Source of the DNA: Gemmatimonadales bacterium
GTDB lineage: Bacteria > Gemmatimonadota > Gemmatimonadetes > Gemmatimonadales > GWC2-71-9
Direction: 5' to 3'
Length of the DNA: 64,000 nt
Assembly: GCA_036500345.1 (NCBI GenBank)
Contig: DASYCE010000007.1
Location: 124,001-188,000, forward strand
The position numbers and the translations under genes are program-made. Shown one piece after another: positions 20,969-37,607 of the stretch. The notes under the pieces are model-generated. The model did not search any database, had not been told where the DNA came from, and saw only the letters and a program-made list of their open reading frames with translations. Every line of letters begins with the position of its first letter. Within the stretch, counting starts at the first letter, position 1.

Positions 20969-21637
20969 ATGAACGAGTGGGTGCAGCTAGGGCTCGGGGC
21001 GATCGGCGCCGGCAGCGGGACAGCGTTCGGGGCGTGGGCCGCGTTCCGCATTGAGCGGGCCGACAAGCGAGCCCGAGAACATGTTGCCCGAGGCGAAGCG
21101 CTGCGACGCTGCATGTTCGTCCTCCTCGCGCGGAGGACTGTACTCATGAACATTTCACGCCAGCACCTTTCGCACTTCGCCGATCATCCGCTGCGGCATA
21201 TTACTCTGCAGCCGTTCTTTGTTGCCGGCGACGAGCTGCCCTTGGAGCTGGACGCCTTGCTCTTCATCTTCGACTCGGCTGAAGCGAACCTTCTTAACCG
21301 ACTTCAAGTCCATAGTCGCCGCTACCGGACAATTCTATGGGCTATCGAATTCCGAAACCGCGTCCATCTTGAAGGTCAGGAAATCGCGGCGCAGCTGGCG
21401 AGCGCAACCGGGGAAACGGAGGGTACCGCAGAGCAATTCCGGATGCTCGTCGGCCCACATCGATGGGCACAGCTCAAGGACTTGACTGACTCGATCTACG
21501 AGAGCGTGACGGCGGCGATCGAGGAGATTGATAGCGACTACCGCGCAGTGGAGGCCGTCGCCGTAGCGATGTTCCCCGAGGTCAAGCTGTTCAAGGTGAG
21601 AGAGTTGGCTGCGCAGTCGATTGGGGATGCTGTCTAA
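20969..21637 (+). CDS. Cassette 1: membrane-anchored protein of unknown function
   Basis: 222 residues. One predicted N-terminal membrane helix (VQLGLGAIGAGSGTAFGAWA) is followed by a basic stretch and a helical cytoplasmic domain with no recognised family. It is the first gene of the array, 36 bases after the attI-like core. Its TAA stop lies inside the left core site of attC1. Confidence 0.6.
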   Translation: MNEWVQLGLGAIGAGSGTAFGAWAAFRIERADKRAREHVARGEALRRCMFVLLARRTVLMNISRQHLSHFADHPLRHITLQPFFVAGDELPLELDALLFIFDSAEANLLNRLQVHSRRYRTILWAIEFRNRVHLEGQEIAAQLASATGETEGTAEQFRMLVGPHRWAQLKDLTDSIYESVTAAIEEIDSDYRAVEAVAVAMFPEVKLFKVRELAAQSIGDAV

Positions 21638-21754
21638 CACCCGCTTGCTGCTGGCCGAGCGAAAGCGTGTCGGCGCGGCGCGGAGTATGATTCTTTGCTA
21701 AGGACTGCACCGCGCCGCCACTCGCCCCGCAGCAGAAGCGTAGCGTCGTTATGC
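21632..21754 (+). other. attC site 1
   Basis: Left core GTCTAAC, then CGCTTGCTGCTG; right half GCAGCAGAAGCG and right core GTTATGC. The arms are complementary around a TATGATTC...CTAAGGACTGC centre (long class, about 123 bases). The right core departs from GTTAGGC. Confidence 0.85.
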
Positions 21755-21774
21755 TCACCAACTAGGGCGGGTCC

Positions 21775-22536
21775 GTGACCGGTGAACGGGAGGTCCATCT
21801 TGATCCGCTGAGCGGCATTAGCCTCCTCGTACGGCCGATGTTCGGCGACACGAGGTTGAGTCAGGCGACTGGGTTTATCGTCGCGATAGGGCCGCAGCAT
21901 TATCTCGCGACAAACTCGCATGTAGTGACCGGACGTCACGCGGACACCGGTAAGGTGCTCGCAAAATCTGCGGCAGTTCCGGATCACCTTCAGGTCGTCT
22001 TCCACAGCAAGGCAGGAATCGGAAGTTGGGTTGTACGCGAGGTGCCGCTGTTCGATGAGACCGGGAACCACCTTTGGGTTGAACATCCGAAGGGTCGGAA
22101 AGTGGATGTGGTCATGGTCCCGATTCCTCTGGATCCGGTCGCGACGTATTACCCAATGGATCTTGCGCTCGCGCGCGCTGACGTGCTCGTCGGGGTGGCG
22201 ATGCCTGTCTCCATTATCGGATTTCCGCTCGGGCTCACGGCTCACGACGCTTGGCCAATATGGAAAACCGGGCACATCGCGTCTGAGCCAGAGATCGACG
22301 TTGATAACGTGCCCTGCTTCTTGGTGGACGCCACAACGCGTGAGGGGATGTCTGGTTCGCCGGTCATCCTCAGGTTTTGGGGCGGCTTTCCGAAGCGGGA
22401 CGGGTCACGTGTTCTCGGCGGAAGCGTCACTTCCTTTCTCGGTATCTATTCCGGGCGATTGCTCGCCGACTCCGAAGTGGGGAGGGTGTGGCGGCCAGAG
22501 GTCTTGACGCAGATTGCTGGTACAGCGGGAGCATAA
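21775..22536 (+). CDS. Cassette 2: trypsin-like serine protease
   Basis: 253 residues of the chymotrypsin-like fold. The catalytic histidine lies in HYLATNSHVVTG, a plausible aspartate in KVDVVMVPIPLD, and the serine in TREGMSGSPVILR, all in the correct order. There is no signal peptide, so it should act in the cytoplasm, where trypsin-like domains are known effectors in several phage-defence proteins. That role is an inference. The GTG start follows attC1 by 20 bases. The stop codon is inside the attC2 left core. Confidence 0.8.
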   Translation: MTGEREVHLDPLSGISLLVRPMFGDTRLSQATGFIVAIGPQHYLATNSHVVTGRHADTGKVLAKSAAVPDHLQVVFHSKAGIGSWVVREVPLFDETGNHLWVEHPKGRKVDVVMVPIPLDPVATYYPMDLALARADVLVGVAMPVSIIGFPLGLTAHDAWPIWKTGHIASEPEIDVDNVPCFLVDATTREGMSGSPVILRFWGGFPKRDGSRVLGGSVTSFLGIYSGRLLADSEVGRVWRPEVLTQIAGTAGA

Positions 22537-22596
22537 CACGCTCTTGCTGCTGGCCGGACGACAGGGGTCGGCAGCAGAAGCGCAGGGTCGTTAGCG
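22531..22596 (+). other. attC site 2
   Basis: Left core GCATAAC followed by a CTCTTGCTGCTG arm; right arm CAGCAGAAGCGC and core GTTAGCG. Short class, about 66 bases. Confidence 0.85.
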
Positions 22597-22621
22597 AGCG
22601 TCAACACTATGGAGTAGATGA

Positions 22622-23818
22622 TTGAACACGTTGTCTAGCACACTGCTGGAAGAGGTAGTTGGGGGAGTGACCGGGAATATCTTCCTGCGTGAGTTCTCGG
22701 TGACCTCGGGTAAACTACGTGTCCCCGCCGGTGAGATCGAGGTTGCCGATGTACTGGTCTTGCTTCGAGGCATGGCCCTGATCCTCCAAGTCAAAGACCG
22801 GCATGTCTCTGCAGATGCGAGCAGCGACGCTCTTGCAATATGGTTTCGCAAGAAGGTGCGGGGTCAGGCCGTTGGTCAGATCGCTGACACCTACCGGTAC
22901 CTTCAGGAACATGAGGGCCGTGTGGTCCAGAATGATCGAGGCCACGACACTATTCTCAGCAACCCAGATGCGGGCGCGGCGAGCTCGGTCGTGATCTATC
23001 GGGCACCGGGTACCCCCGATTTCCGTGGGGCTGCAGGAGCCAGAAGCAGCCGCGCTGGATTCGTACACTTCGTTGAGGCTGGTGACTATCTCAGCCTTTG
23101 CCAAGTGCTTCGCACGCCGCACGATTTGTCTCAGTATTGGAGGTTTCGTGAGAACACGTTGAAGCACGTCGTGCGTGGGTCGCACGTTGGTGAGAAAGCG
23201 CTGGTTGGGCAGTTCCTAGCGGACGTTTCTGGCCCACCGCACGAGCGGTATGCTGCAACGTTCGAGTCGTACTTGCCGTCACACTTGGACTATGACATCT
23301 CAGGTATTCTGCAGAACCTCGGTGATAGAGTAACCTACAGGAAAGGCGGTGAAGGTGACACCTCCCACTATCACATCCTCGAAGAACTGGCGCTGCTTCC
23401 GAGGATCGCATTGGCCGCGTTCAAGGAGCGACTCAAGCTTTGTGTTGAGACAGTGAAGGCCGGGGAGTTCCGGAATCCTAGCCACTTCGCTGTCCCCAAC
23501 ACAGACTGCGGGTTTCTCTTCGCTCCGTGGGATCGCGAGCTCAACATCCCACAGGAGAAATACCTCGAGACGCTGACACGACTATCTAAGTACACCTTTG
23601 GTACTCGGAGGCAGGTGGGACTAGCGGTCTCCGATGACGGAGACGGGTTCTTCATTCTATGGGCGTTCCTAGACGAGCCCCACACACAGAACCCAGATCT
23701 CGACGCAGCATTAGCTGCGCCGGGGAACCCACTACCGCCCACCAAGGAGAAGATTGTTCCGGCTTATTATTTTGATTCTTCTGGCCTCGAAAGAGTTCTC
23801 GGCCGTGGGCCCGAATGA
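22622..23818 (+). CDS. Cassette 3: candidate PD-(D/E)XK-type nuclease
   Basis: 398 residues. Near the N-terminus, GEIEVADVLVLLRGMALILQ followed by VKDR matches the core of a restriction-endonuclease fold (acidic residue, aspartate, then QxK). The remainder is unassigned, with an HFAVPNTDCGFLFAP block. The start is the TTG at 22622, three bases after an ATG-TAG region; the upstream context is weak. It lies between attC2 and attC3. A nucleic-acid-cleaving role is inferred from the motif only. Confidence 0.55.
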   Translation: MNTLSSTLLEEVVGGVTGNIFLREFSVTSGKLRVPAGEIEVADVLVLLRGMALILQVKDRHVSADASSDALAIWFRKKVRGQAVGQIADTYRYLQEHEGRVVQNDRGHDTILSNPDAGAASSVVIYRAPGTPDFRGAAGARSSRAGFVHFVEAGDYLSLCQVLRTPHDLSQYWRFRENTLKHVVRGSHVGEKALVGQFLADVSGPPHERYAATFESYLPSHLDYDISGILQNLGDRVTYRKGGEGDTSHYHILEELALLPRIALAAFKERLKLCVETVKAGEFRNPSHFAVPNTDCGFLFAPWDRELNIPQEKYLETLTRLSKYTFGTRRQVGLAVSDDGDGFFILWAFLDEPHTQNPDLDAALAAPGNPLPPTKEKIVPAYYFDSSGLERVLGRGPE

Positions 23819-23834
23819 CCTCAGGAACGGCGCT

Positions 23835-23957
23835 CGCTAACAAGCGCTTGCTGCTGGCCGGGCGAGGGCGCGTCGGCGCGGCGCGAGGCATGATGATTTG
23901 CGAAGGACTGCGCCGCGCCGCCACTCGCCCGGCAGCAGAAGCGCAGAGTCGTTAGCA
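23835..23957 (+). other. attC site 3
   Basis: Left core CGCTAAC and arm GCGCTTGCTGCTG; right arm GGCAGCAGAAGCGC and core GTTAGCA. The long class centre ATGATGATTTGC...AAGGACTGC is shared with attC1, 6 and 11. Confidence 0.88.
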
Positions 23958-23975
23958 GACAACCCGGAGTTTTTT

Positions 23976-24689
23976 GTGTCGCAGCGGCCGGCAATTCCGA
24001 AACAGATTCAGGCTGACGTTCTTGTCACCTCCAGACGCCGGTGCTGTGTGTGCTACGGTCTTGAGCACGATGAAGGGCAAAAGGCTGGTCAGATCGCCCA
24101 TCTGGATCATGATCCATCAAACAACGCCGTCGAGAACCTGGTATTCCTTTGCCTTGCCCATCACGATCAGTACGATAGCACAACAAGCCAATCAAAGGGC
24201 CTTTCGTTGGAAGAGGTTCGCCGCCACCAGTCACAACTCAGGCGTTTCGTCACCGAGTCCTTGCCATTGTCTGCGTCAGAGATTGTCCATCTGCTGCTTG
24301 CCTGCCTTGATCGCCCGGCCTTTAGGACGCCGTTCCATATGGAGAGTTCGTTGCCACAGTTTCGTACCGCGATTGCAGAGTCGATCAGAACGATCAATGC
24401 GGGAACGACGTCTGATGGCAAGCAGTTACCGTCAAAGTTCAGCATAGCCGATCCGAAGGTACGGAACGCACTTGATCAAATCGTGCAGCAGTTGGTCGCC
24501 ATCCGTGCGTTCTTTGACGAGCTGCTGAAATCGGGCGAGATCACACCATGTGGGTGCGGTAAGGAAGACTGTCACACGTTTATGTTCACCGATATGGCGG
24601 TGGCGAAGATGGATAGCGCCCGCCGCGTACTGCTCACGCAGGCGAACGCTTTAGACCACGGTTTCCCGTCGGAGATGTACACGTCGTAA
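23976..24689 (+). CDS. Cassette 4: HNH endonuclease-like protein
   Basis: 237 residues. An N-terminal HNH-type module reads RRRCCVCYGLEHDEG, then AGQIAHLDHDPSNNAVENL and LCLAHHDQYD, so a CxxC pair, the catalytic LDHD histidine, the asparagines and the terminal HH are present. The C-terminal part is helical with a CGCGKEDCH cluster. The start is the GTG at 23976, preceded by GGAG; longer open frame upstream is the attC site. HNH proteins are often restriction or defence nucleases. Confidence 0.8.
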   Translation: MSQRPAIPKQIQADVLVTSRRRCCVCYGLEHDEGQKAGQIAHLDHDPSNNAVENLVFLCLAHHDQYDSTTSQSKGLSLEEVRRHQSQLRRFVTESLPLSASEIVHLLLACLDRPAFRTPFHMESSLPQFRTAIAESIRTINAGTTSDGKQLPSKFSIADPKVRNALDQIVQQLVAIRAFFDELLKSGEITPCGCGKEDCHTFMFTDMAVAKMDSARRVLLTQANALDHGFPSEMYTS

Positions 24690-24696
24690 TGCCGCT

Positions 24697-24805
24697 GCCT
24701 AACCCGCGCTTGCTGCTGCCCTGGCCAAGCGCCTGGGCCGCAGCGCATAGATCGAACGAGAACCGCTGCGGCCAGGCCCGGCAGCAGAAGCGCACGGCGT
24801 TAGGC
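24697..24805 (+). other. attC site 4
   Basis: Left core GCCTAAC, arm GCGCTTGCTGCTGCC; right arm GGCAGCAGAAGCGC and core GTTAGGC. The CATAGATCGAA centre belongs to the second centre class seen at attC13, 16 and 17. Confidence 0.88.
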
Positions 24806-24824
24806 CGCACAGAGGTGGATCAGG

Positions 24825-25805
24825 ATGTCGGTTGACGATGACCATTTGCGGAGCCTTCGCCAGCCCCTGTTCAAGTTAAGGGGCGTTCGCTACGCCAGGT
24901 GTTTCGCACCAGGCCCAATGTGCAAGCGCCCTGCAATCCGCGCGCATTCTGTTCAGAATGCGCGGTGCCTCGACCTGCTGGTGGACTCTGGCCACGTCAT
25001 TGCCCTGACACATCGACTTAATATGGACGAAGGCGTTTTGATCGATTTCGCCAAAGTTGGTCGCAACAAGGCAACAACATTCGCCGGCCTCTGCGAGAGC
25101 CATGATCGGGAACTATTTGCTCCCATCGAGACTCAGCCACTTGCGCTGGACGATTCTTCGCAACTCTTTCTGCTCGCGTATCGGGCAGTGTTGTTTGAGC
25201 TTCATGCCACGTGTGCGGCAGGCGCCCTTCTCCACGCGGCGTATGCGAAGCGAGTAGAACTCGGCATCGACCCTAAAGGCAAGCTGTCACCCGCCGGGCA
25301 ATACGCTACCGAGAGAATGGCGATCGCGTTCGAAACCAACCTCTACAAGTTGAGGTTTGACCAGGCCCTCACATCCGGGGACACGGCCTTCCTCCTCCAT
25401 GATGTCAGCCTCCTCGAGGTATCGCGTCCAACTGTCGCAGCTTCGGCCCTCATTAGTCTCGACGGCGTCGCGAACGACGAAGGCGATGTGGTCAGAATCT
25501 GCCTGACTGTTCTTCCAGTTGACCAGACGCGAATCGCTGCTGTGTTGTCATATCTCCCAGAGGATGCTCCACTGGCGCGCGTTCACCTAGACCGGATCAT
25601 CACAACGAGGGGTGCCCACCAGATGTATGAGTTATCGCGCCGAATCATCAACCACTGCTCGAACTTCGTCATCGCCCCACACTACTTCGATTCTTGGGCG
25701 CAGCGGAAGCGAGATACAATCCGGGAATACTTTGTCCGAACCATTCGCGTCGGAGATCTCGCAGTTGAGGATCCTGACTTGATGCTTTTCGAAAGTGCGG
25801 CATAA
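24825..25805 (+). CDS. Cassette 5: Cys/His-rich HNH-like protein, unknown function
   Basis: 326 residues. The N-terminal region has CFAPGPMCKRPAIRAHSVQ and later TFAGLCESHDRELFAPIE, a spaced Cys-Cys-His-Cys-His set that looks like a zinc-bound treble-clef/HNH-like module. The remaining two thirds are helical and unassigned. It carries an ATG at 24825, 20 bases after attC4, and its TAA is part of the attC5 core. A nuclease role is only a possibility. Confidence 0.55.
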   Translation: MSVDDDHLRSLRQPLFKLRGVRYARCFAPGPMCKRPAIRAHSVQNARCLDLLVDSGHVIALTHRLNMDEGVLIDFAKVGRNKATTFAGLCESHDRELFAPIETQPLALDDSSQLFLLAYRAVLFELHATCAAGALLHAAYAKRVELGIDPKGKLSPAGQYATERMAIAFETNLYKLRFDQALTSGDTAFLLHDVSLLEVSRPTVAASALISLDGVANDEGDVVRICLTVLPVDQTRIAAVLSYLPEDAPLARVHLDRIITTRGAHQMYELSRRIINHCSNFVIAPHYFDSWAQRKRDTIREYFVRTIRVGDLAVEDPDLMLFESAA

Positions 25806-25914
25806 CAAGCGTTGCAGTTGACGGGGCCAAGCGATGCTGGGGCGGCCCACGATGGCCCGACATGGATGGGCCGCCCCAGCCGAGGCCCCGCAACTGAAAC
25901 GCAGCACGTTAGGC
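25800..25914 (+). other. attC site 5
   Basis: Left core GCATAAC and arm AGCGTTGCAGTTG; right arm CAACTGAAACGC and core GTTAGGC, with an inner GGGGCGGCCCA/TGGGCCGCCCC stem. The arm sequence differs from the other sites but the fold is the same, so this cassette probably came from another source. Confidence 0.82.
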
Positions 25915-25934
25915 GGTCCCAGCGGAGGTTGATG

Positions 25935-26543
25935 ATGGGTGACTTGGATCGTTTGCCGGCCGTTCGACGTGACGGAAGCGAACCGTTTCGCGCCGGAGGC
26001 GCCGACATTGGCGCGATTCTTTTGGATTTCTGGCAATGGTCGGTCTCCGACTTGGTTAGCAACGCTACGCGCGGGCGCCTCGCTGAGTACATCGTGGCCA
26101 AGGGCATCGGAGTTTCTACCGCTGGCGTGCGTGACGAGTGGGCCGCTTGCGACCTCTGCACTTCCGCAGGAGTTCAGGTCGAAGTCAAGTCCGCGGCGTA
26201 CTTGCAGAGTTGGCATCAAAAGGACTATTCGACGATCCAGTTCAGCGTCCGCAAGGCAAGAGAGTGGAGCTCCGAGACGAACGTCGTTGGAACTGAACCC
26301 GTTAGGACCGCGCACGTCTATGTCTTCGCACTTCTCTTCCATAAGTCCAAAGCAACGCTCGATCCGCTAAACCTGGATCAGTGGCAGTTCTTCGTGCTGC
26401 CGACCCGGACGCTCGACGAACGCGAGCGCAGTCAATCCTCGATCACGCTCGCGTCTTTGGAAGGATTGGTACAGGCCATTCCGTTCGCAGGGTTGAGGCA
26501 CGCGGTTGAAGCAGCAAGTCTCGTTGCGCGCGGGGCTACCTAA
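25935..26543 (+). CDS. Cassette 6: restriction-endonuclease-like (PD-(D/E)XK) protein
   Basis: 202 residues. The pattern LLDFWQWSVSDLVSNATRGR, AEYIVAKGIG, DEWAACDLCTSAG, VQVEVKSAAYLQSWHQKDYS shows the aspartate and the ExK of a PD-(D/E)XK core, with a helix before it. This domain is familiar from genomic islands and cassettes but has no fixed name. Start: the ATG at 25935 lies six bases after GGAGG; the adjacent ATG at 25932 would be too close. The stop is in the attC6 core. Confidence 0.7.
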   Translation: MGDLDRLPAVRRDGSEPFRAGGADIGAILLDFWQWSVSDLVSNATRGRLAEYIVAKGIGVSTAGVRDEWAACDLCTSAGVQVEVKSAAYLQSWHQKDYSTIQFSVRKAREWSSETNVVGTEPVRTAHVYVFALLFHKSKATLDPLNLDQWQFFVLPTRTLDERERSQSSITLASLEGLVQAIPFAGLRHAVEAASLVARGAT

Positions 26544-26656
26544 CACGCGCTTGCTGCTGCCCGAGCGAAGGCGTGTCGGCGCGGCGCGATGTATGATTTA
26601 TCTAAGGATTGCGCCGCCGCCACTCGCCCGGCAGCAGAAGCGCAGCGTCGTTAGAC
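26538..26656 (+). other. attC site 6
   Basis: Left core ACCTAAC, arm GCGCTTGCTGCTGCC; right arm GGCAGCAGAAGCGC and core GTTAGAC. Long class centre TATGATTTATCTAAGGATTGC. Confidence 0.88.
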
Positions 26657-26696
26657 CGCTAGACAGAATCGCCAATCCGTCTCCGGGACGAAAGAA

Positions 26697-27548
26697 ATGG
26701 ACATCAGCATAGTTGCTGCCCTGATCGGCGTGGGTGGGAGCGTGGTCGGCGCGGTGTTGGGCTCCTGGTTTTCGTACCGTTTGACGAAGCCACGACTCGC
26801 CAGAGCTGAGCTACGAGTCATCGAATCTCAGGATGCCCTTGTAAAGGCCGAGGGTGCCGCCCTCGATGCGGGGCACAGCCCTGAATACCAGCTGCTTGCC
26901 GCGCTTAAGGTCGATGCACACGAAGTTGAATGGTCGTTCGACGACGCAGGCAGGGGACTCAAAATTCTCAAATTCCTTGGAGTCCGGCCGCTTCAAGTCG
27001 TCCAAGATCTTCGAATCCCGTTCTATGATGATGTTAGCCGAGAAGGCCGAGGGCACCGGTATCCTGAGGTTGCCGCGCTTGGTGGGACATCTCGACTGAT
27101 ATCTCTCGATGAAGCGCATCTCGGCTTTAGTGACCATACGGTGCATGGTCACGTGGTTATACATGGCCTGTTAACACCCGAGTCGAAGGCCGAAAGCTTC
27201 TTGGTACGCATTCCCTTTGACGGCATCTTCTTTCTTACTCTGCCCGAAGCTGAAGCTGCGTTCGTCAACGACGCGTGGCAGGAAGACTACGGTCGCATTG
27301 CAGTTCATTGCCCATTGGGCCGATTGCGGCTAACGGTTACGTTCCCTCCGAGTTTTGCGGCGATGACCTCGAAACCGAAGCCTGTGGTATTCTACGCACA
27401 TACTGAAACCGTGCACGAAATCGCGACGCGACGCCTTGACGCTGATTCGTCCTGCTTCACTTATCGTGACTTGACTGCACAGCTTGATGTCGTCGCGCCT
27501 GCAATCGGCTTGTCCTACGGAATCTCGTGGCTGCCGCCAGTGGTGTGA
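26697..27548 (+). CDS. Cassette 7: membrane-anchored protein of unknown function
   Basis: 283 residues. An N-terminal membrane helix (IVAALIGVGGSVVGAVLGSW) leads into a basic, helical segment and a beta-rich domain without recognisable motifs. The layout of one short N-terminal helix plus a soluble domain resembles cassette 1, though no sequence similarity is evident in the soluble part. It ends 48 bases before attC7. Confidence 0.55.
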   Translation: MDISIVAALIGVGGSVVGAVLGSWFSYRLTKPRLARAELRVIESQDALVKAEGAALDAGHSPEYQLLAALKVDAHEVEWSFDDAGRGLKILKFLGVRPLQVVQDLRIPFYDDVSREGRGHRYPEVAALGGTSRLISLDEAHLGFSDHTVHGHVVIHGLLTPESKAESFLVRIPFDGIFFLTLPEAEAAFVNDAWQEDYGRIAVHCPLGRLRLTVTFPPSFAAMTSKPKPVVFYAHTETVHEIATRRLDADSSCFTYRDLTAQLDVVAPAIGLSYGISWLPPVV

Positions 27549-27596
27549 GCGCTATCTTGTCGCATACGGTGCCGATGCTTAGCAGAGGATGACGCG

Positions 27597-27656
27597 GTCT
27601 AACCCGCGCTTGCTGCGGACGGGCCACCTCGGCCGCAGAAGCGCAAGGCGTTAGAC
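27597..27656 (+). other. attC site 7
   Basis: Left core GTCTAAC, arm GCGCTTGCTGCGG; right arm CCGCAGAAGCGC and core GTTAGAC. Short class, 60 bases. Confidence 0.87.
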
Positions 27657-27697
27657 CGACGAGGGCCTTCCCAACCTCAACCCTTGGATTGTTGCCG

Positions 27698-29293
27698 ATG
27701 GCCACCATAACGCGACTGTCGGTCCGAAACTTCAAGATGCTGCGCGAGTTCGACTTGGAGCTCGATAGCACTTTGAACATCTTGGTAGGCAAGAACGACT
27801 CTGGGAAGTCAACCATACTGGAAGCCGTCAACCTAGCGCTTACCGGTCGGCTAAATGGGCGCCCGTTCGCCCAGGAGCTCTCGCCGTACCTCGTCAACTC
27901 CGGCGCGGTCGCCGATTATGTCGCCGCCCTCAAGACAAACCCGAAGGCGACCCCACCAGAGGTGATCATCGAAGTCGAGTTTGCCGATGACGACAGCACG
28001 GCATTCCTTCGCGGCATGAACAACCTGAGAGGCGCCGATGCCTGCGGTATCCGCATTTGTGCCTCGATGTCGGTTGCATTTATCGATGAGTACTCACGGC
28101 TGGTCGCAAGCCCAGGCGAAGTCAGACTGGCTCCGACTGAGTACTATACGGTCGATTGGCTTGGCTTCAATGGCAATGCCATTGGTTCGCGAAGTGTGCC
28201 TGTGCGAGTGTCGCTAATTGACGCTTCTGCCATTCGAGCCCAATCCGGCATCGATCAGCACCTGCAACAAGCAGTGCAGGCATTCCTCGACCCGGCCGAG
28301 CGCGTGGAGCTGTCGCGAGAATATCGAAGTCTCAGGGAGCAGTTCAGCGAAAAGGCGCCGGTCCGAGCCATCAACGAAAAGCTTCAAGCGACCAGCTCAG
28401 GGGTTAGTGACCGCGCACTTACGATGGCCCTTGATCTCTCCCAACGTAGTACGTGGGAGACGAGCATCGTCGCCCACCTCGATGAAATACCGTTTGCACT
28501 CATCGGGAAGGGCGAGCAGAATGTCCTCAAGATTCTCTTCGCACTTGTTCAACGGGCAGCGACCTCGAACGTGGTGCTGATTGAGGAGCCTGAAGCGCAT
28601 CTCTCCTTTGCATTGCTCAACGTGTTGATGCGTCGCATTGGAGACAATGCGGGTGCGAAGCAACTGATCGCTTCAACCCACAGTACTTTCATCGCAAACA
28701 AGCTCGGACTAGAACACCTAGTGTGTCTCGGTGGCTCACACCCAACCCGCTTGCACGCCCTTGAGGATGGCACGGTGCAATTCTTCCGGAGACTGCCGGG
28801 CTATGACACCCTTAGGCTCGTCCTTGCTTCAGGTGCACTCCTCGTAGAGGGCCCATCAGACGAGCTGGTCGTGCAGCGGGCGTATCTGGACAAGCACGGC
28901 AAGCTTCCCCTAGAGAATGGGATTGACGTCATTAGCGTCGGGTTGTCCCACAAGCGCTTCCTCGAGCTTGCAATCCCGCTCCAGCGACGAGTGTGGGTCA
29001 TCACTGACAACGATGGAAAGACACTCAGTGAAGTCGGAAGGCGATTTGAAGGCTACCTGAACACGCACATCACGCTTCACACTTGTGACGATCCGGCGCT
29101 CAGGACACTCGAGCCTGCAATTGTGGCCGCAAACAGCTTGGGTGACCTCAACGCGGTACTCTCGTGCGACTTCAGCACCAAGGAGGAAGCATTGGAGTAC
29201 ATGAGCGAGAACAAGACTGAAGGCGCCCTGGCGATCTTCGCAGCCGAGGCATCGCTCGTCATGCCCGCCTACATCGCATCTGCGATTGCCTGA
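27698..29293 (+). CDS. Cassette 8, gene A: OLD-family ATPase/TOPRIM nuclease (GajA-like)
   Basis: 531 residues. An N-terminal ABC-type ATPase has Walker A VGKNDSGKST near residue 33, a GKGEQNVLKIL signature and Walker B VVLIEEPEAHLS, then the STHST switch region. A C-terminal TOPRIM domain follows with LLVEGPSDELVV (glutamate) and VWVITDNDGK (DxD). This is the class 2 OLD layout, which occurs beside UvrD-like helicases and includes GajA of the Gabija anti-phage system, a DNA-nicking enzyme regulated by nucleotides. It is slightly shorter than the well-studied GajA. The ATG at 27698 is preferred over a TTG nine bases upstream because it begins the conserved ITRLSVRNFK strand. It overlaps the helicase gene by eight bases. 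Confidence 0.88.
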   Translation: MATITRLSVRNFKMLREFDLELDSTLNILVGKNDSGKSTILEAVNLALTGRLNGRPFAQELSPYLVNSGAVADYVAALKTNPKATPPEVIIEVEFADDDSTAFLRGMNNLRGADACGIRICASMSVAFIDEYSRLVASPGEVRLAPTEYYTVDWLGFNGNAIGSRSVPVRVSLIDASAIRAQSGIDQHLQQAVQAFLDPAERVELSREYRSLREQFSEKAPVRAINEKLQATSSGVSDRALTMALDLSQRSTWETSIVAHLDEIPFALIGKGEQNVLKILFALVQRAATSNVVLIEEPEAHLSFALLNVLMRRIGDNAGAKQLIASTHSTFIANKLGLEHLVCLGGSHPTRLHALEDGTVQFFRRLPGYDTLRLVLASGALLVEGPSDELVVQRAYLDKHGKLPLENGIDVISVGLSHKRFLELAIPLQRRVWVITDNDGKTLSEVGRRFEGYLNTHITLHTCDDPALRTLEPAIVAANSLGDLNAVLSCDFSTKEEALEYMSENKTEGALAIFAAEASLVMPAYIASAIA

Positions 29294-30380
29294 ACGCAAG
29301 GCAATTCTCGCCACAGCGGGAGCTGGCAAGACTACGGAAGTCATCCAGCGCGCACTTGGTGCGACTGGCGGGCGCGTCGTTCTCCTGACCTTTACGGCCG
29401 AGAACCAGCGCCGGCTCGACACTCATCTCCGTGCTGCTGCTGGTGCGCTTCCACCGCAGATTCGTGTCATGGGCTGGTTTTCCTTCTTGATCAACGAATG
29501 TATCAAGCCATATCAAGCCGCTCTTACCGGAGTCCCCTTTGCCGTGCGGGGGCTGAACTTCACAGGTGAGGCACCGCGCTATGCAAGGAACGAGAGTGTT
29601 GAGCGCTATCTAGATGGGAATCTCGATGTCTACCGAGACCGTGTCGCACAATGCGCAGTACATCTGAATACCCTTACGAATGGTTTGGTCGCACGGCGGC
29701 TTGAACGCTGCCATTCTCATGTCTTCCTGGACGAAGTGCAGGACTGCGCAGGCTACGACATGGAAGTGCTGGACCTACTCTTTGGTACGTCCATCAATGT
29801 CGTGGTTGTTGGCGACCCGCGACAAGCCATCATCACTACCAATCACGGCCCACTCAACAAGAAGTACCGTGGGCATGGACTCTGGGACTGGGTCAAAGAG
29901 CGCTCCAGCCTCATCGCTCTTGAGGAGCGCAACACGAACTATCGTTGCCACGCGGAGATTTGCACGCTTGCCAATAGCGTGTTCCCGGTCTTGCCAGCCG
30001 CCACTTCTGGACTCGCCACTTCTTCAGGGCACGACGGGGTATTCTTCGTCTCCAACAAGGACCTCGAATGGTATCTTGCCACGTATCCACCAGATATCGC
30101 ATTGCGGCAGACGAAGGCGACAGAAACCCATGACCTTCCTGCAATGAACATCGGGGTTGCAAAGGGGGATACCTTCAACCGCGTTCTCGTCTTTCCGACC
30201 AAACCCATGAGAGACTTTCTCCTGAGCCGAGACCCCGGGCCCCTTCGCTCACCGGAGCATCTTTACGTTGCGGTGACACGGGCGCGCTACAGCGTCACCT
30301 TTGTCGTGCCGGAGGATGAGTGCTCAGCCTACACCAGTGCAGGGCCCGGAACGTGGGCTCGGCCGGAGGATGCCGCCTAA
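29286..30380 (+). CDS. Cassette 8, gene B: short UvrD-like helicase (GajB-like)
   Basis: 364 residues of superfamily 1A, shorter than typical GajB. Motif I is ATAGAGKTTEV, motif II VFLDEVQDCAGYDM, motif III VVVVGDPRQAI, then NTNYRCHAEIC, VAKGDTFNRVLVFP and motif VI YVAVTRARYSVTF. Start is a TTG within the end of the nuclease gene (overlap TTGCCTGA), so the two are translated together. Together with the OLD-TOPRIM protein this makes a complete Gabija-type gene pair. Its TAA lies in the attC8 left core, which shows that both genes share one cassette. Confidence 0.87.
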   Translation: MPERKAILATAGAGKTTEVIQRALGATGGRVVLLTFTAENQRRLDTHLRAAAGALPPQIRVMGWFSFLINECIKPYQAALTGVPFAVRGLNFTGEAPRYARNESVERYLDGNLDVYRDRVAQCAVHLNTLTNGLVARRLERCHSHVFLDEVQDCAGYDMEVLDLLFGTSINVVVVGDPRQAIITTNHGPLNKKYRGHGLWDWVKERSSLIALEERNTNYRCHAEICTLANSVFPVLPAATSGLATSSGHDGVFFVSNKDLEWYLATYPPDIALRQTKATETHDLPAMNIGVAKGDTFNRVLVFPTKPMRDFLLSRDPGPLRSPEHLYVAVTRARYSVTFVVPEDECSAYTSAGPGTWARPEDAA

Positions 30381-30435
30381 CCAGCGTTTGCTGCGGTGTG
30401 CCCCCCATGTGCCTCGCTGGAGAAGCGCGGGGCCG
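30375..30435 (+). other. attC site 8, degenerate (right core lost)
   Basis: Left core GCCTAAC and arm AGCGTTTGCTGCGG are clear, and a right arm GAGAAGCGC is present, but no GTTRRRY core follows. Without it the crossover cannot occur here. Confidence 0.65.
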
Positions 30436-30468
30436 GGCCTGTCCACCTCTCTATCATTGGGAGTCGTC

Positions 30469-30957
30469 GTGCCACAGATGACAGATCCGATGGATGCATT
30501 TCGCACCCTCCAACCGGCAATCGACAGCGGTGACGTCCAGTTGGAGCCGTGTGAGATCTTTGACCACCTCAAGGTCATCGTAGACCACCCTATGGGGGAA
30601 TTGCGCCTAACGTATGTATCAATGTCTGGCGGGCAGGCCGCTGGGATCGTCCAGTTCGTAAAGGCAGACCCTTTCAACAACTTGCCCTGCTTCAGTATCG
30701 GATACGCTGTCCATGAGTCACTTCGCAAGCAAGGGTTGGCCACACGCATTGTTGCAGACGCTCTTGCTGAATTGGAGAATGGGCTTCGCGGCACGTCATT
30801 GAAGAGGTATTACGTTGAGGCCGTTGTTTCTACCTCCAACGAGGCCTCAAAGCGGATAGCCAGCCGCTTCATTTCAGATGCCCCTGTCAGTATCACCGAC
30901 GAGTTCTCGGGAGAGCCGGCACTTCAGTACATGAGACTGTTCCCTCGTTCGGGGTGA
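30469..30957 (+). CDS. Cassette 8/9: GNAT acetyltransferase
   Basis: 162 residues with GNAT fold features: a substrate-side strand, then QAAGIVQFVKADPFNN, IGYAVHESLRKQGLATRIVA (the RxxGxA acetyl-CoA loop) and a helix before YYVEAVVSTSNEASKRIASR. The GTG at 30469 has a GGGAG five bases upstream; an ATG at 30478 is the alternative. It sits between a damaged attC8 and a damaged attC9, so it appears locked to the Gabija-type genes. Acetyl acceptor unknown. Confidence 0.75.
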   Translation: MPQMTDPMDAFRTLQPAIDSGDVQLEPCEIFDHLKVIVDHPMGELRLTYVSMSGGQAAGIVQFVKADPFNNLPCFSIGYAVHESLRKQGLATRIVADALAELENGLRGTSLKRYYVEAVVSTSNEASKRIASRFISDAPVSITDEFSGEPALQYMRLFPRSG

Positions 30958-30963
30958 GCGGTA

Positions 30964-31081
30964 GAAGCAGCCGCGCTTGCTGCTGCCGAGGCCAAGACGG
31001 CTCGGCCGCCGCGATGTATGCTTTATCTGAGGAATGCGGTGGCCTCATCTGGCCTCGCAGCAGAAGCGCAGATCGTTAGGC
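30964..31081 (+). other. attC site 9, degenerate (left core lost)
   Basis: The arms GCGCTTGCTGCTGCC and GCAGCAGAAGCGC and right core GTTAGGC are intact, but the left core position reads GAAGCAG instead of RYYYAAC. Long class centre TATGCTTTATCTGAGGAATGC. Confidence 0.75.
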
Positions 31082-31100
31082 CGATTTGGCGGAGGAACCC

Positions 31101-31727
31101 TTGGACGTGTTTGAGCAGGCGTTACGCCTGCAGGATATGGCTGTCCGAATCGGAATGGCAGTTTGGCATTGCCAGGAACTCGAAACGGCGTTGTCCACAT
31201 ATCTCGTAGTTTGTGTCCAGCCGAAACCGGGAATTGGAATGACGAAGGGATCTGCCCTCACCGCTAACGCCGAGAGTAAGCCGATGGGCGTACTCTTGAA
31301 GGAGCTCAATAAGGCTGGAGTAGTGCCGCACGCTCGTGCAGTCAGGCTCAACGCCGCTCTTGAAGAGCGAAACTGGATGGTGCATAGAATCTCGAGGCAA
31401 CACCGAGGCGTCCTGCATAAAGACGCTGTGTACACCGAGGTCATCGAGAGAATCGACGCTTTAGCTGCCGAAGCGCTGGCTCTTCAGAAGGCGACTGGCA
31501 AAGAGGTTGAGTCTTATGTCAGTACGCATGGCTTAAGTCGGGCGTACGTTGACAGAGAAGCAGCGAAGCTTCTTTCGAAGTGGCACCCGATATCGAAGGC
31601 GAAACCACAGCCTAACCCGCGCTTGCTTCTGACGCCTCCTAAGCGCCTCGGCTGGCGCCGATGTGGTAACATTGCTAAGGATGGCGACAGCCTCGGCAGG
31701 CACCGCAGCAGAAGCGCAGGCCGTTAG
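31101..31727 (+). CDS. Cassette 10: HEPN-like protein, reading through its attC
   Basis: 208 residues. The helical N-terminal domain has GMAVWHCQELETALSTYLV and later ALEERNWMVHRI, where RNWMVH matches the RX4H catalytic motif of HEPN ribonucleases. HEPN proteins are common toxins and abortive-infection effectors; the activity here is an inference. A GGAGG at 31091 sets the TTG at 31101 as the likely start (an in-frame TTG at 31086 overlaps that site). The frame has no stop before attC10, runs through the entire site and ends at the TAG of its GTTAG core, adding about 38 residues. Confidence 0.6.
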   Translation: MDVFEQALRLQDMAVRIGMAVWHCQELETALSTYLVVCVQPKPGIGMTKGSALTANAESKPMGVLLKELNKAGVVPHARAVRLNAALEERNWMVHRISRQHRGVLHKDAVYTEVIERIDALAAEALALQKATGKEVESYVSTHGLSRAYVDREAAKLLSKWHPISKAKPQPNPRLLLTPPKRLGWRRCGNIAKDGDSLGRHRSRSAGR

Positions 31728-31729
31728 AT
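31610..31729 (+). other. attC site 10
   Basis: Left core GCCTAAC, arm GCGCTTGCTTCTG; right arm GCAGCAGAAGCGC and core GTTAGAT. The centre has GTAACATTGCTAAGGATGGC, close to the long class. It is fully inside an open reading frame. Confidence 0.83.
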
Positions 31730-31750
31730 GGCACGACCTTTGGAGGGTAC

Positions 31751-32449
31751 GTGGCTTTCACATTCGTAGACGTAAGTGGGCGGCGATTGAGCAAAGATCG
31801 TGACCCGACGAAGTGTCCGCAGTGTCATCACGCGATTACACCGGACGAGGTCGATTGGAGATTAGTTAAGCCACTCTCAGCTCTCCGCCCGAAGCTAGCA
31901 ATCATCTATCAGTGTCCAGCAATCGATTGCAAGAGGCTGTTCATCGCTACGTATGAATGGGAAGACGTCCCGTCCTACCGGGGAACTGAACCCCAGTTCC
32001 AGCTACGTTACCTCGCGCCGCGGGCGATCCAATCCCCAACATTTCCGAAGGAAATCGCGGAAGTCTCTCCCACATTCGTGGAGGTGTTCGTTCAGGCAAG
32101 TGCAGCCGAGCAATATCAGCTCGCTCAGGTCGCAGGCCCAGGATGCAGAAAGTCGCTTGAGTTTCTCGTCAAGGACTACTGCATCAGCGTACATCCCGAC
32201 AAGCGCGACACGATCATGGCTACCCTCCTTGGGCCGTGTATCCAGACCTATGTGGACGACCAGAACATCAAGGATTGCGCGCGAATGGCGGCGTGGTTAG
32301 GCAATGACGAAACACATTACGAGCGCCGGTGGGTCGACAAAGACATTTCTGATTTGAAAACACTGATCGAGCTCACGACCAACTGGATTCGGAATCATGT
32401 ACTGACAAGACGGTATCTCGAAGGGATGCCGAAGCAGGGTGCCATCTAA
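31751..32449 (+). CDS. Cassette 11: DUF4145-like protein
   Basis: 232 residues. The N-terminal zinc-ribbon-like part has KCPQCHHAI and a YQCPAIDC pair. A helical domain follows with FVEVFVQASAAEQYQLAQVA, GCRKSLEFLVKDYC and a later NDETHYERRW, the layout of DUF4145 proteins, which are HEPN-like and linked to defence islands and restriction loci. The GTG start follows a GGAGGG. The TAA is inside the attC11 core. Confidence 0.65.
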   Translation: MAFTFVDVSGRRLSKDRDPTKCPQCHHAITPDEVDWRLVKPLSALRPKLAIIYQCPAIDCKRLFIATYEWEDVPSYRGTEPQFQLRYLAPRAIQSPTFPKEIAEVSPTFVEVFVQASAAEQYQLAQVAGPGCRKSLEFLVKDYCISVHPDKRDTIMATLLGPCIQTYVDDQNIKDCARMAAWLGNDETHYERRWVDKDISDLKTLIELTTNWIRNHVLTRRYLEGMPKQGAI

Positions 32450-32565
32450 CACGCGCTTGCTGCTGGCCGGGCGAGAGCGTGTCGGCGCGGCATGGGATAT
32501 GATTCTTGGCTAAGGACTGCGCCGCGCCACCACTCGCCCGGGAGCAGAAGCGCAGGTCATTAGCC
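32444..32565 (+). other. attC site 11
   Basis: Left core ATCTAAC, arm GCGCTTGCTGCTGGCC; right arm GGAGCAGAAGCGC and core ATTAGCC, where the first G of the crossover GTT has become A. Long class centre TATGATTCTTGGCTAAGGACTGC. Confidence 0.8.
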
Positions 32566-32586
32566 AGCACATCGTGGAGGCCGCCA

Positions 32587-33090
32587 ATGACCCGTGCCTA
32601 CAGAGTTCACGGCGAGCAGTTGCAGATCGGTGGCACAGTACCACCCAGCACGGTGTTTAGCGCCGCGGCACTGAAAGATGACCGCGGGCCGATCGAGAAG
32701 CGATTCGAAGAGCTTCGGCCAGCTAATAGGCCCACCCGACAATCAGCAGTGTTCGTGTTCGAGTCCGTCGATGAGGCGAAGCGCTTCGTTGCTTCCAAAG
32801 GGAATCACTTCCTTTACGAGGTCGACGTCGGTGATCCACCTCGACATCGAGGCGATTGGACGTGGCTCAATAAGGCACGACAGTCTCCGGTGATAATCGA
32901 CGAATGTGCGCACTCCTACTGGGCAGGGAACGCGACAGAGTCGCCCGTGTGGGAGTGGATCGTTAGGGAAGCGGTCGCTACGCAGGACTTGAGCCCTACG
33001 GCTCAGGAACGGGACGAACTGCGGAAGCAGCACTATGGTCTGTCAACGGGCCAGGAGATCGCTGATTCCCTCCGACGCTGTGCTGGCTAA
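32587..33090 (+). CDS. Cassette 12: unknown protein, possibly ADP-ribosyltransferase-like
   Basis: 167 residues. The order YRVHGEQLQIGGTVPPSTV, then EKRFEELRPANRPTRQSAVF, a helix with SVDEAKRFV, HFLYEVDV and DWTWLNKARQS recalls DUF2441-type domains that resemble ADP-ribosyltransferases, but I cannot confirm a catalytic triad. The ATG at 32587 lies six bases after GGAGG. The TAA is inside the attC12 core. Confidence 0.5.
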   Translation: MTRAYRVHGEQLQIGGTVPPSTVFSAAALKDDRGPIEKRFEELRPANRPTRQSAVFVFESVDEAKRFVASKGNHFLYEVDVGDPPRHRGDWTWLNKARQSPVIIDECAHSYWAGNATESPVWEWIVREAVATQDLSPTAQERDELRKQHYGLSTGQEIADSLRRCAG

Positions 33091-33154
33091 CCCGCGCTTG
33101 CTGCTGACGATGCCAAGCGGTTCGGCCTCGCCGCAGAAGCGCAAACCGTTAGAT
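33085..33154 (+). other. attC site 12
   Basis: Left core GGCTAAC, arm GCGCTTGCTGCTG; right arm CGCAGAAGCGC and core GTTAGAT. Short class, about 70 bases. Confidence 0.85.
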
Positions 33155-33180
33155 CGCTAGCTTTCCACTCGGAGGGATTC

Positions 33181-33897
33181 GTGCGGCGGCTCTACGTTCC
33201 GACTTTCGGGCCGACGGACTGGCGGCGCTTGCTCGCAGATCCCGAAACGCAATGGGAGCCGAAGAAGTCGGCCCTCGAGATGGCCGTGTGTTGGGAGGCA
33301 GCATGTAGCAGCGCTCGCGGATTGCCGCCCGAGGTCGCCGCCGCAATTGATGGCAACTCCGACTTGGCGGGAGCGTATTTGGTCTTGGGCCTTCCTGAGC
33401 ATCAGGTAGCAATTCCGGGTGGCGGCCATTCATCTCAGAACGACCTTTGGGCGCTTTTGCGTCGCGGTGACGACTTGGTCTCGGTCGCGATTGAGGCCAA
33501 GGCTGGCGAGTCGCTCGACGCCCTCGTCAAGGATTGGTTGCGGACCCCCAATCCGCGTACCCGAAAGCCGGAACGTCTCGCGGCGCTGCAGGGTCACCTG
33601 GACATCGACGGTCACGACGTATCTGAGCTGCGGTACCAGCTACTGCACCGGGCCGCATCAGCGCTCATCGAAGCCGATAGGTTCCGTGCCAAGTTCGCGG
33701 TCCTTCTCGTTCAGTCGTTCAACAGACAGGCTGATGAGGGCAGTTGGAATGACTGCTGCCGTTTCGGCGAAGTGCTCGGTGCCAAGGTATGCGAGAACCA
33801 GATTGTGGCGACCACGGTGCGGACCGTGATACCGTTGTACATCGGCTGGATATCGTCGTCTCCGGCGAACGAGGATCGGCTGCGAACGGCGGTCTAA
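33181..33897 (+). CDS. Cassette 13: candidate PD-(D/E)XK-fold protein
   Basis: 238 residues. The core VAIPGGGHSSQNDLWALLRR followed by VSVAIEAKAGES has an aspartate and an ExK suited to a PD-(D/E)XK nuclease. The helical start (SALEMAVCWEAA) and the LRYQLLHRAASALIEADRF block are also typical of a conserved family of unknown role. The GTG start follows GGAGGG. The stop is inside the attC13 core. Confidence 0.6.
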   Translation: MRRLYVPTFGPTDWRRLLADPETQWEPKKSALEMAVCWEAACSSARGLPPEVAAAIDGNSDLAGAYLVLGLPEHQVAIPGGGHSSQNDLWALLRRGDDLVSVAIEAKAGESLDALVKDWLRTPNPRTRKPERLAALQGHLDIDGHDVSELRYQLLHRAASALIEADRFRAKFAVLLVQSFNRQADEGSWNDCCRFGEVLGAKVCENQIVATTVRTVIPLYIGWISSSPANEDRLRTAV

Positions 33898-34002
33898 TCC
33901 GCCCTTGCTGCGGACGGGTCGCGCTCGGCCACCGCAGGCATAGATTCGATTCGACGGAGCGGCGGCCTCAGCGCCTCCGCCGCAGAAGCGCACGGCTTTA
34001 GC
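33892..34002 (+). other. attC site 13
   Basis: Left core GTCTAAT (last base changed), arm CGCCCTTGCTGCGG; right arm CCGCAGAAGCGC and core TTTAGCT, with the crossover G lost. The centre GCAGGCATAGATTCGATTCGA defines the second centre class. Confidence 0.75.
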
Positions 34003-34021
34003 TGGCAGAGAAGGAGGCCCG

Positions 34022-35113
34022 GTGGGTTTCTATATTCGAAAAGCTATTAAAGTGGGACCTCTTCGTTTCAATCTCTCGAAGTCCGGTGTCGGTGTATCCG
34101 CTGGGATCAAAGGATTGCGCTTCGGAACCGGCCCTCGCGGCAACTATGTGCACATGGGTCGGGGCGGACTGTACTACAGGCAGAGTCTTGGCAATTCTAG
34201 GTCACCGAATACGCCTTCGCCAGTCCGAGAAACCGGACACGCGTACTCTGTGGATCCAACACTTGGGCCGATGATTGACATCGAGAGTGGTCCCGTTTCC
34301 CACATGGTCGATTCCAGTGCTGCGGATCTCCTCGCCGAGATGAACGCTAAGAAGCATCGCGCGCGATTCGCGGGATGGGTTGCCGCAGCCTCCTTGGTCA
34401 TTCTCGCTTCGTCGGTAAGCGCTGGCGATCGTCCAGTGCAGACCATCGTTGCTAGCGCCGTCTGCATTGGGCTAGTGTGGTACGTGCACCAACGCGACGT
34501 GCTGCGGAAGTCAACCGTGCTTTTCTACGACTTCGCCGACGGCGCCGAATCTCGGTTTCAGGGAATCCACGATGCATTTGGGACGTTGGCGGAAGCCCAA
34601 CGCGCATGGCATGTGGAGAGCCATGCGGCAGTATATGACAAGCGGTACCACGCAGGTGCTTCCGACTCGATACGTCGGACAGTGATTCGGCCAACGATCG
34701 GTCTGCCTCCCGGGATTCGTGTGAACGTCGATATTCCCATGCTGAAGGTGGGACAGCAGCTCTTGGCCTTCATGCCAGAACGGGTCTTGGTTTTCGACGA
34801 CGGGCAGGTTGGTGCGATCGCCTACCAAGACATACTGGCCGAAGTGTCAACAACGCGCTTTATCGAATCGGAGGGTGCGCCGTCGGACTCACAGGTCGTC
34901 GGGCGCACGTGGAGATTTGTGAATAAGGACGGAAGTCCAGACCGACGTTTCAACAACAATCGCGAGCTTCCGATTCGTCAATATGAAGCCCTCCGCCTGA
35001 CAAGCCAGTCCGGACTAAACGAACTCATTCATTTATCGAAGACAGGCAGCAGCCGGCCGCTCGCGCTCGCGATAATTTCGCTTTCACATATTCGGAGCCC
35101 TGCTGCCACCTAA
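34022..35113 (+). CDS. Cassette 14: DUF4236 membrane protein
   Basis: 363 residues. The N-terminal 50 residues are a clear DUF4236 domain (IKVGPLRFNLSKSGVGVSAG, then LRFGTGPRGNYVHMGRGGL). Two membrane helices follow near residues 115-160 (WVAAASLVILASSVSAG, TIVASAVCIGLVWYV), then a soluble C-terminal domain. DUF4236 has no known activity. The GTG at 34022 follows AAGGAGG. The stop lies inside attC14. Confidence 0.75.
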   Translation: MGFYIRKAIKVGPLRFNLSKSGVGVSAGIKGLRFGTGPRGNYVHMGRGGLYYRQSLGNSRSPNTPSPVRETGHAYSVDPTLGPMIDIESGPVSHMVDSSAADLLAEMNAKKHRARFAGWVAAASLVILASSVSAGDRPVQTIVASAVCIGLVWYVHQRDVLRKSTVLFYDFADGAESRFQGIHDAFGTLAEAQRAWHVESHAAVYDKRYHAGASDSIRRTVIRPTIGLPPGIRVNVDIPMLKVGQQLLAFMPERVLVFDDGQVGAIAYQDILAEVSTTRFIESEGAPSDSQVVGRTWRFVNKDGSPDRRFNNNRELPIRQYEALRLTSQSGLNELIHLSKTGSSRPLALAIISLSHIRSPAAT

Positions 35114-35225
35114 CGCGCGCTTGCTGCTGGCGAGGCCAAGACGGCTCGGCCGCCGCAATACATGCTTTGCCTACGGACTGCGGCGGCCTCACCTGCCCTC
35201 GCAGCGGAAGAGCAGGGCGTTAGTT
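35108..35225 (+). other. attC site 14
   Basis: Left core ACCTAAC, arm GCGCTTGCTGCTGGC; right arm GCAGCGGAAGAGC (two changes) and core GTTAGTT. Long class centre ATACATGCTTTGCCTACGGACTGC. Confidence 0.8.
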
Positions 35226-35234
35226 AGCCTCACG

Positions 35235-35585
35235 ATGCATACTGAATCTGAAGACACGACCTATTTTGGATTGTGGTCGGCCAACCAGCGCCTTCGAGTT
35301 GTGGAGCTACTTTCTTCACTCGGAGTGCGTTTCCATTTCGTCGACGCACGTGAATCGGAGGATCGCCTTCGCGCATGGGAAGCTTGGGACGAGTCCTCTG
35401 CCGGTACTTTGACGGGGTACGAGCTGTTTGTCCGAACAGCGGATCTCGACAAACTCAGTATGAGGCTGGTTGAGATGTTCCCGAAAGGAAGTTCGGGTCA
35501 GCATGAGTTGGGTCGGCTACCTAATACGCGCTTGCTGCGGGCGAGGCTAACACAGGTCGGCCGCCGCGATGTATGCTTTATCTAG
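35235..35585 (+). CDS. Cassette 15: small unknown protein ending inside its attC
   Basis: 116 residues: strands and helices (RLRVVELLSSLGVRFHFVDA, GYELFVRTADLDKLSMRLVE) resembling small alpha/beta domains; no family recognised. The ATG at 35235 lies ten bases after attC14. No stop occurs before attC15. The frame enters the site and ends at the TAG in its central TATCTAGGGAATG, so the last 20 or so residues are attC-encoded. Confidence 0.5.
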   Translation: MHTESEDTTYFGLWSANQRLRVVELLSSLGVRFHFVDARESEDRLRAWEAWDESSAGTLTGYELFVRTADLDKLSMRLVEMFPKGSSGQHELGRLPNTRLLRARLTQVGRRDVCFI

Positions 35586-35634
35586 GGAATGTGCCGGCCT
35601 CACCTGTCCTCGCCGCAGAAGCGCGCTGTTAGGC
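35519..35634 (+). other. attC site 15
   Basis: Left core ACCTAAT (last base changed), arm GCGCTTGCTGCGGGC; right arm CGCCGCAGAAGCGC and core GTTAGGC. Long class centre TATGCTTTATCTAGGGAATG. Confidence 0.82.
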
Positions 35635-35713
35635 AGTCGCAAGGGACGGCGTCCGCCCGGGTCGGTGTCGAAGAACTCGTCGCCTTACCATTTCATCCGT
35701 GGATTGGAAACCG

Positions 35714-36220
35714 ATGCACGACGACTCATTCCGATTGTCAACAGACGAGGAGTTGGCGGCGCGGATCAAACGAGCAATGGACGGCTGGGACACGAAGCCG
35801 ACCGCTGAGGACTGCGAACGCGTCACGGCCGAGTTTATAGCAGCGCAGCGAGCGTGGGAGCGAAAGCTTGCGGCACTACCGCCCGAAGAACGCGCGCGGG
35901 TTGCCGCCCAAGACGCGGATGAGGCCCAGGCCGAACTTGCAGCCAGGAAGCGCGGCCTCACAAGAGCGGAAGCAGCACGCTTGCACTTAGCGCAACTGGA
36001 GTTGGAAGGGGCACGCATTCTCAAGCGCGCCGAGGCACGGATTATCGCGCGCTCTTCGCCAGTTATGAGCGGTGACGAGATCGACGCCCTTAGGCGCGAC
36101 GAGGTGGAGTTGGCGGAGGCCGAGTTACAGGCATGGCTTGCCGCAAACCCACCGCCAACGCTGGCAGACGACGAACGGGCAATCCAAGCCCTAATCGGTG
36201 ATGTCCGGACTGACAACTAA
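35714..36220 (+). CDS. Cassette 16: charged helical protein, unknown function
   Basis: About 168 residues, almost entirely alpha-helical and very rich in Ala, Glu and Arg (ELAARIKRAMDGWD, AEFIAAQRAWERKLA, DADEAQAELAARKRGLTRAE), probably coiled coil. No domain recognised. The ATG at 35714 is one start; a GTG at 35699 would add five residues. It ends 33 bases before attC16. Confidence 0.5.
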   Translation: MHDDSFRLSTDEELAARIKRAMDGWDTKPTAEDCERVTAEFIAAQRAWERKLAALPPEERARVAAQDADEAQAELAARKRGLTRAEAARLHLAQLELEGARILKRAEARIIARSSPVMSGDEIDALRRDEVELAEAELQAWLAANPPPTLADDERAIQALIGDVRTDN

Positions 36221-36253
36221 ATGGCGCAGTGCAATGTGCGGTCGGCCAGGGCT

Positions 36254-36364
36254 GCCTAACCCGCGGTTGCTGCGGATGGGTCGCGCTCGGCCAACGCAGG
36301 CATAGATTCGATCCGATCGTGCGGTGCCTCGGTGCCTCCGCCGCAGAAGCGCCGGTCGTTAGGC
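36254..36364 (+). other. attC site 16
   Basis: Left core GCCTAAC, arm GCGGTTGCTGCGG; right arm CCGCAGAAGCGC and core GTTAGGC. Centre GCAGGCATAGATTCGATCCGA, the same class as attC13 and attC17. Confidence 0.86.
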
Positions 36365-36403
36365 ATCCGTTCTCGATCTAGACACTAGCGACGGAGAGAC
36401 GGC

Positions 36404-37560: not shown

Positions 37561-37607
37561 CCGCCGTTGGGACCGCCGCCGAACGAATCGTTGCAACTGA
37601 GGTGGGG

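Follow-up and report, generated by a model that had tools for sequence, protein, structure and literature searches.

The window analysed here, a stretch of 64,000 nucleotides from a Gemmatimonadales bacterium, carries a Gabija system with a short GajB helicase. Very probably, this system was taken up by a sedentary chromosomal integron as a single cassette of two genes and has since become fixed in that place. Its origin as an integron cassette is well supported, because the attC site in front of the pair (attC7) is intact, the stop codon of gajB lies within the R'' box of the following site (attC8), and strand and base composition are those of the other cargo. The gene pair and its surroundings comprise the following features.

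27597-27656, plus strand: attC7, intact; R'' GTCTAAC and R' GTTAGAC pair at 7/7 positions; bottom-strand fold z -4.4
27698-29293, plus strand: gajA, OLD-type ABC ATPase and TOPRIM nuclease, 531 amino acids, ATG start
29286-30380, plus strand: gajB, short UvrD-like helicase, 364 amino acids, TTG start
30375-30438, plus strand: attC8, decayed; R''/L'' left half intact (26.2 bits), right half 8.9 bits
30472-30957, plus strand: next cargo, a GNAT-type acetyltransferase gene (Pfam Acetyltransf_3, E-value 1.9e-6, above the cut-off)
30963-31081, plus strand: attC9, R'' box lost; right half 31.5 bits, left half 12.6 bits

The initial annotation had described two open reading frames overlapping by eight bases, and both were recovered with that overlap (29286-29293). 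ATG 27698 is the best start for gajA, and TTG 29286 was taken as the start of gajB because the Met-Pro that follows it aligns with the starts of relatives. Relatives (Streptomyces, Xanthomonas, Agrobacterium, Klebsiella, E. coli and Pantoea plasmids) share this gene order, their two genes overlapping by 8-23 nt. The overlapping genes described here are probably co-translated. Expression of this cargo is uncertain, since no sigma-70-like promoter was found by a promoter scan on the plus strand upstream; results of the promoter and terminator scan were at chance level or below. An Rfam search of the array returned zero matches.

The assignment to Gabija, which the initial annotation had proposed, is borne out by profile matches near full length and by conservation of the mapped nuclease and nucleotide-sensing residues. 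GajA matches the PADLOC profile PDLC00102 (E-value 8.2e-181, positions 2-529 of 532) and GajB matches PDLC00148 (E-value 1.5e-96, positions 4-360 of 369). The Pfam domains AAA_15, AAA_21 and OLD-like_TOPRIM, the last above the cut-off, were detected in GajA, and UvrD-helicase in GajB. GajA residues H328, E384, D437 and D439 align with H320, E379, D432 and D434 of Bacillus cereus GajA, and E384, D437/D439 and H328 are invariant in an alignment of 11 sequences. Nine sequences were used to build a profile for the C-terminal half of GajA; searched against PDB chains, it matched only solved GajA chains at E-values below 1e-5. Between the C-terminal part of GajA and the solved chain there was no alignment, and for the equivalents of D511 and K541 the invariant residues E472 and K506 are no more than candidates. 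In GajB, superfamily 1 motifs I-VI are present and conserved (Walker A, DEVQD, GDPRQ, NYRC, KG..F..V and VAVTRA), and the best PDB match of the family profile is the solved B. cereus GajB (E-value 4e-12, over GajB 13-248 and 421-481). AlphaFold models of both proteins, from 8-sequence alignments, are of low confidence (mean pLDDT of 52.1 and 46.9). Neither the absence of a GajA or GajB profile match nor the loss of an essential catalytic residue, the two outcomes that had been named as counting against the assignment, was observed. Together, these sequence comparisons support identification of the pair as Gabija, with a predicted anti-phage activity.

GajB comprises 364 amino acids, compared with 494 in B. 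cereus GajB, and in the profile alignment only some 40 residues correspond to the stretch between B. cereus residues 249 and 420. In B. cereus GajB, the C-terminal accessory subdomain lies between residues 313 and 417 (PMC10681800). Since the alignment gap spans these residues, the short GajB is predicted to consist of two RecA cores that lack the C-terminal accessory (2B-like) subdomain; the long B. cereus-type architecture, in which each of the two RecA cores carries an accessory subdomain within 494 amino acids, is not matched here. The remark that this helicase is shorter than a typical GajB thus holds against the B. cereus type but not within its own subfamily, where 364 amino acids is typical: PADLOC models short GajB within Gabija, with profiles of 365 and 369 positions. 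Searches of plasmids with tblastn returned 1731 records covering at least 80% of GajB and 1665 covering at least 80% of GajA, and the same short pair occurs on Bacillales chromosomes (L009-L015) and viral contigs (L034-L047). Short GajB adjoins GajA in every complete relative examined. Identity to the relatives in the protein alignments is 38-49% for GajA and 29-43% for GajB. At the DNA level, a plasmid search recovered only short pieces of 70-76% identity. The short helicase is therefore a trait of a widespread subfamily and not an oddity. Shrinkage of the helicase driven by integron packaging was considered and rejected, the same short form being found on plasmids, chromosomes and viral contigs. 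Relatives of the gajA-gajB pair are present in hundreds of enterobacterial plasmid records, and in Klebsiella and E. coli the pair directly follows vapBC on plasmids of IncF type (L059:1638-4207 and L060:3448-6020).

The array in which the pair resides, together with the integrase remnant in front of it and the lesions within it, is as follows.

20378-20874, plus strand, as the cassettes: intI remnant, lacking approximately the N-terminal half and frameshifted beyond it
20933-20939, plus strand: probable attI crossover GTTAGAC from sequence, start of cassette 1
21632-37290, all on the plus strand: attC array, 17 sites of a single type
32559-32565: lesion in the core triplet or beside it, attC11
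33892-33898 and 33997-34003: two such lesions, attC13
35519-35525: such a lesion, attC15
37284-37290: such a lesion, attC17, GTTCGGC

The probable attI crossover at 20933 is the exact reverse complement of the attC1 R'' box GTCTAAC at 21632. Across the genome, near-exact matches to the left core all fall in one array and on one strand, apart from one chance match elsewhere. Gabija forms cargo 8, which is by far the largest unit, with 2782 bp between crossovers compared with 409-1361 bp elsewhere; the median cargo size in the array is approximately 0.85 kb, against 2.8 kb for Gabija. The cassette at 21775-22536 encodes a trypsin-like peptidase domain (Pfam E-value 1.2e-7) and is in addition matched by PDC-S45, a candidate defence family of PADLOC (E-value 8e-18). 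In the protein encoded at 23898-24689, an HNH-like stretch is present (CxxC ... HLDHDP ... LCLAHHDQYD), and PADLOC gives a weak match to PDC-M68A (E-value 9e-4); the protein encoded at 33181-33897 is a full-length member of DUF6946 (E-value 3e-63). Just past the last attC lies a gene of the uracil-DNA glycosylase superfamily (37521-38132), followed by an outer-membrane beta-barrel gene.

The sites that flank Gabija differ in their state of preservation. In attC7, the crossover GTTAGAC lies at 27650-27656, so that the Gabija cargo begins on its left side at G27650^T27651; gajA starts 47 nt past this crossover. At the other end, the TAA stop codon of gajB is within the attC8 R'' box GCCTAAC (30375-30381), and other genes of the array likewise end in R'' boxes. 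The right half of attC8 retains L' GAAGCGC, with GCCGGGC in the position where other sites have GTTRRRY, and its bottom strand has no attC-like fold (z -0.1, arms unpaired). It scores 8.9 bits, whereas the right halves of the others score 13-33 bits; attC15 is also low on the ungapped matrix, owing to a shorter spacing, with its GTT intact. In attC9, the R' box GTTAGGC is intact (31075-31081) and the arms fold, with the R box unpaired on the bottom strand. In leave-one-out position weight matrices, the left and right halves of attC7 score 31.5 and 28.7 bits and the left half of attC8 scores 26.2 bits, values attained, with both strands of the window counted, at just 6, 6 and 15 positions, in each case no more than the count of real attC sites. 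On these ranks, the attC halves are not chance matches. The placement of attC7 before the pair and of a left half of attC8 at the helicase stop is thus as initially annotated, and in attC8 the left half alone is intact. The acetyltransferase gene is not separable from gajAB at attC8.

The integrase has decayed as well, and the remnant is the only intI-like sequence near the array. It matches TIGR02249 at positions 162-218 in one frame and 221-313 in another, with zero match before, and it aligns with the intact 370-residue IntI of a congener only from residue 207 (58% and 70% identity). No protein of the genome, which is 96% complete, scored over the TIGR02249 integron-integrase cut-off. Among the 61 genomes searched, 26 contain an integron integrase above the cut-off, including two of the same genus. 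In one congener (G006), one attC site of the same type lies downstream of intI in the same orientation; a congener's intact intI was located at L030:1366-2478, with attC of the same type downstream. The intact congener IntI and shared attC type, set beside the remnant in this genome, indicate an integron that is native to the lineage and dead in cis here. Further core triplets are altered in attC11 (ATT), attC13 (AAT and TTT) and attC15 (AAT). These lesions fit relaxed selection on the array and decay following integrase loss.

Very probably, gajAB was captured by attC recombination. Later losses then removed the N-terminal half of the integrase and disrupted its reading frame, and took away the crossover triplet of attC8 and the R'' box of attC9; through this decay, gajAB would now be left without an exit site of its own. 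The description of the pair as packaged in an integron cassette therefore stands for its origin, in view of attC7 and the R'' box at the gajB stop, and not for a present-day cassette, since the attC8 crossover is gone. An excisable cassette has an intact upstream attC, which is present, and its own downstream attC with a G^TT crossover, which is absent. Likewise, the array has the related attC sites in one orientation expected of an active sedentary chromosomal integron and lacks a functional intI. The suggestion that the whole operon could move as one cassette is accordingly not sustained for the present sequence, because attC8 has no crossover, intI is a pseudogene and no other integron integrase was found in the genome.

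Mobility could nevertheless be provided in trans, with an integrase using attC7 and attC9 to excise a 3.4-kb composite of gajA, gajB and gnat (27651-31075). We regard this as unlikely: attC7 is intact, attC9 keeps its R' box GTTAGGC and a folding arm, and two congeners have an intact IntI, but the R box of attC9 is unpaired on the bottom strand, the genome has no functional integrase, and none of the other genomes searched in the phylum carries the same GajA. An extended version, in which the compact pair travels as a single cassette, loss of attC8 fused the acetyltransferase gene to it as a trans-mobilisable three-gene composite, and the acetyltransferase is an added defence part, is very improbable. 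A different account is that gajAB was never a cassette and arrived by plasmid or transposon insertion or by homologous recombination, coming to lie between attC halves by chance. Damage to attC8 would be compatible with such an arrival, as would the occurrence of relatives (L009-L019) on plasmids and chromosomes with no attC of this type nearby; yet the gajB stop sits inside an R'' box like that of other cargo in the array, the pair extends from just past the attC7 crossover to a good left attC half, and its strand and base composition fit the array, making this account quite improbable. Entry as one two-gene cassette followed by fixation remains the preferred reading. The base composition of gajAB is that of the other cargo and not that of the flanks, and this GajA occurs in 1 of 395 genomes of the phylum, which together speak for horizontal gain. 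No second copy of this GajA was found in 60 relatives or in the 394 other genomes of the phylum.

The function of the pair may be considered by analogy with characterised Gabija systems, in which GajA cuts DNA under nucleotide control and GajB engages DNA ends and hydrolyses nucleotides (PMC8136825, PMC12342005). In B. cereus GajA, the E379A substitution abolishes nuclease activity and H320A partly relieves inhibition by ATP (PMC8136825). By this analogy, the two proteins would form a complex in which the TOPRIM site of GajA nicks or cuts phage DNA once freed from nucleotide inhibition, with control exerted by the nucleotide-sensing ATPase domain, and GajB would act as a superfamily 1 ATPase at DNA ends, with nucleotide hydrolysis. 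With both RecA cores kept in the short GajB, ATP-driven DNA engagement is expected to remain, and unwinding may differ. According to a proposal made in a preprint, Gabija prevents linear phage DNA that lacks RecBCD from circularising (PMC12407980). That the OLD-UvrD pair instead serves a non-defence function, for example in plasmid competition or DNA repair, seems unlikely to us. The literature search returned no activity data for the short-GajB subfamily, and enterobacterial relatives adjoin vapBC on IncF plasmids; against this, the PADLOC profiles matched over their full length are specific to Gabija subfamilies, and the solved Gabija proteins are the best PDB matches of both the helicase profile and the GajA C-terminal profile.

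Defence genes are already known as integron cargo, having been established in integron cassettes by papers of 2025 covered in a review (PMC12409362); that review describes integron defence systems as small, with larger systems of more than two genes absent. With its two genes, the case described here ranks at the upper end of cassette sizes, and the array that holds it has lost mobility. No paper naming Gabija as integron cargo was found in the literature search, in which the primary integron-defence papers were known through the review and reference lists. The pair exemplifies a known defence operon of two genes that reaches the limit of size for integron cargo, in agreement with the reports of small defence systems, and it shows the fixation of cassette cargo once the integrase and attC sites decay. 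Short-GajB Gabija is itself widespread (more than 1,700 plasmid records) and, judging from the search, apparently unstudied; it bears on whether the accessory subdomain of GajB is needed.

Like the Gabija of B. cereus VD045, the system encodes an OLD-type ATPase with a TOPRIM nuclease followed by a UvrD-like helicase, and it retains the equivalents of H320, E379, D432 and D434; it differs in the length of GajB (364 versus 494 amino acids, with 249-420 reduced as described) and in that sequence similarity is remote. Protein lengths, gene order and the small overlap are those of the short-GajB subfamily (PADLOC PDLC00102/00098 with PDLC00148/00140), more distant members of which are frequent on enterobacterial IncF plasmids beside vapBC. 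The pair is set apart from that subfamily by its location in an integron array; none of the GajA relatives L009-L019 has an attC of this type nearby. It resembles the defence cassettes described for integrons, both chromosomal and mobile (Darracq 2025, Getz 2025 and Kieffer 2025, via PMC12409362) in that defence genes are carried as cargo, and differs from those reported in being a known two-gene system of 2.8 kb, held in an array that has lost its integrase.
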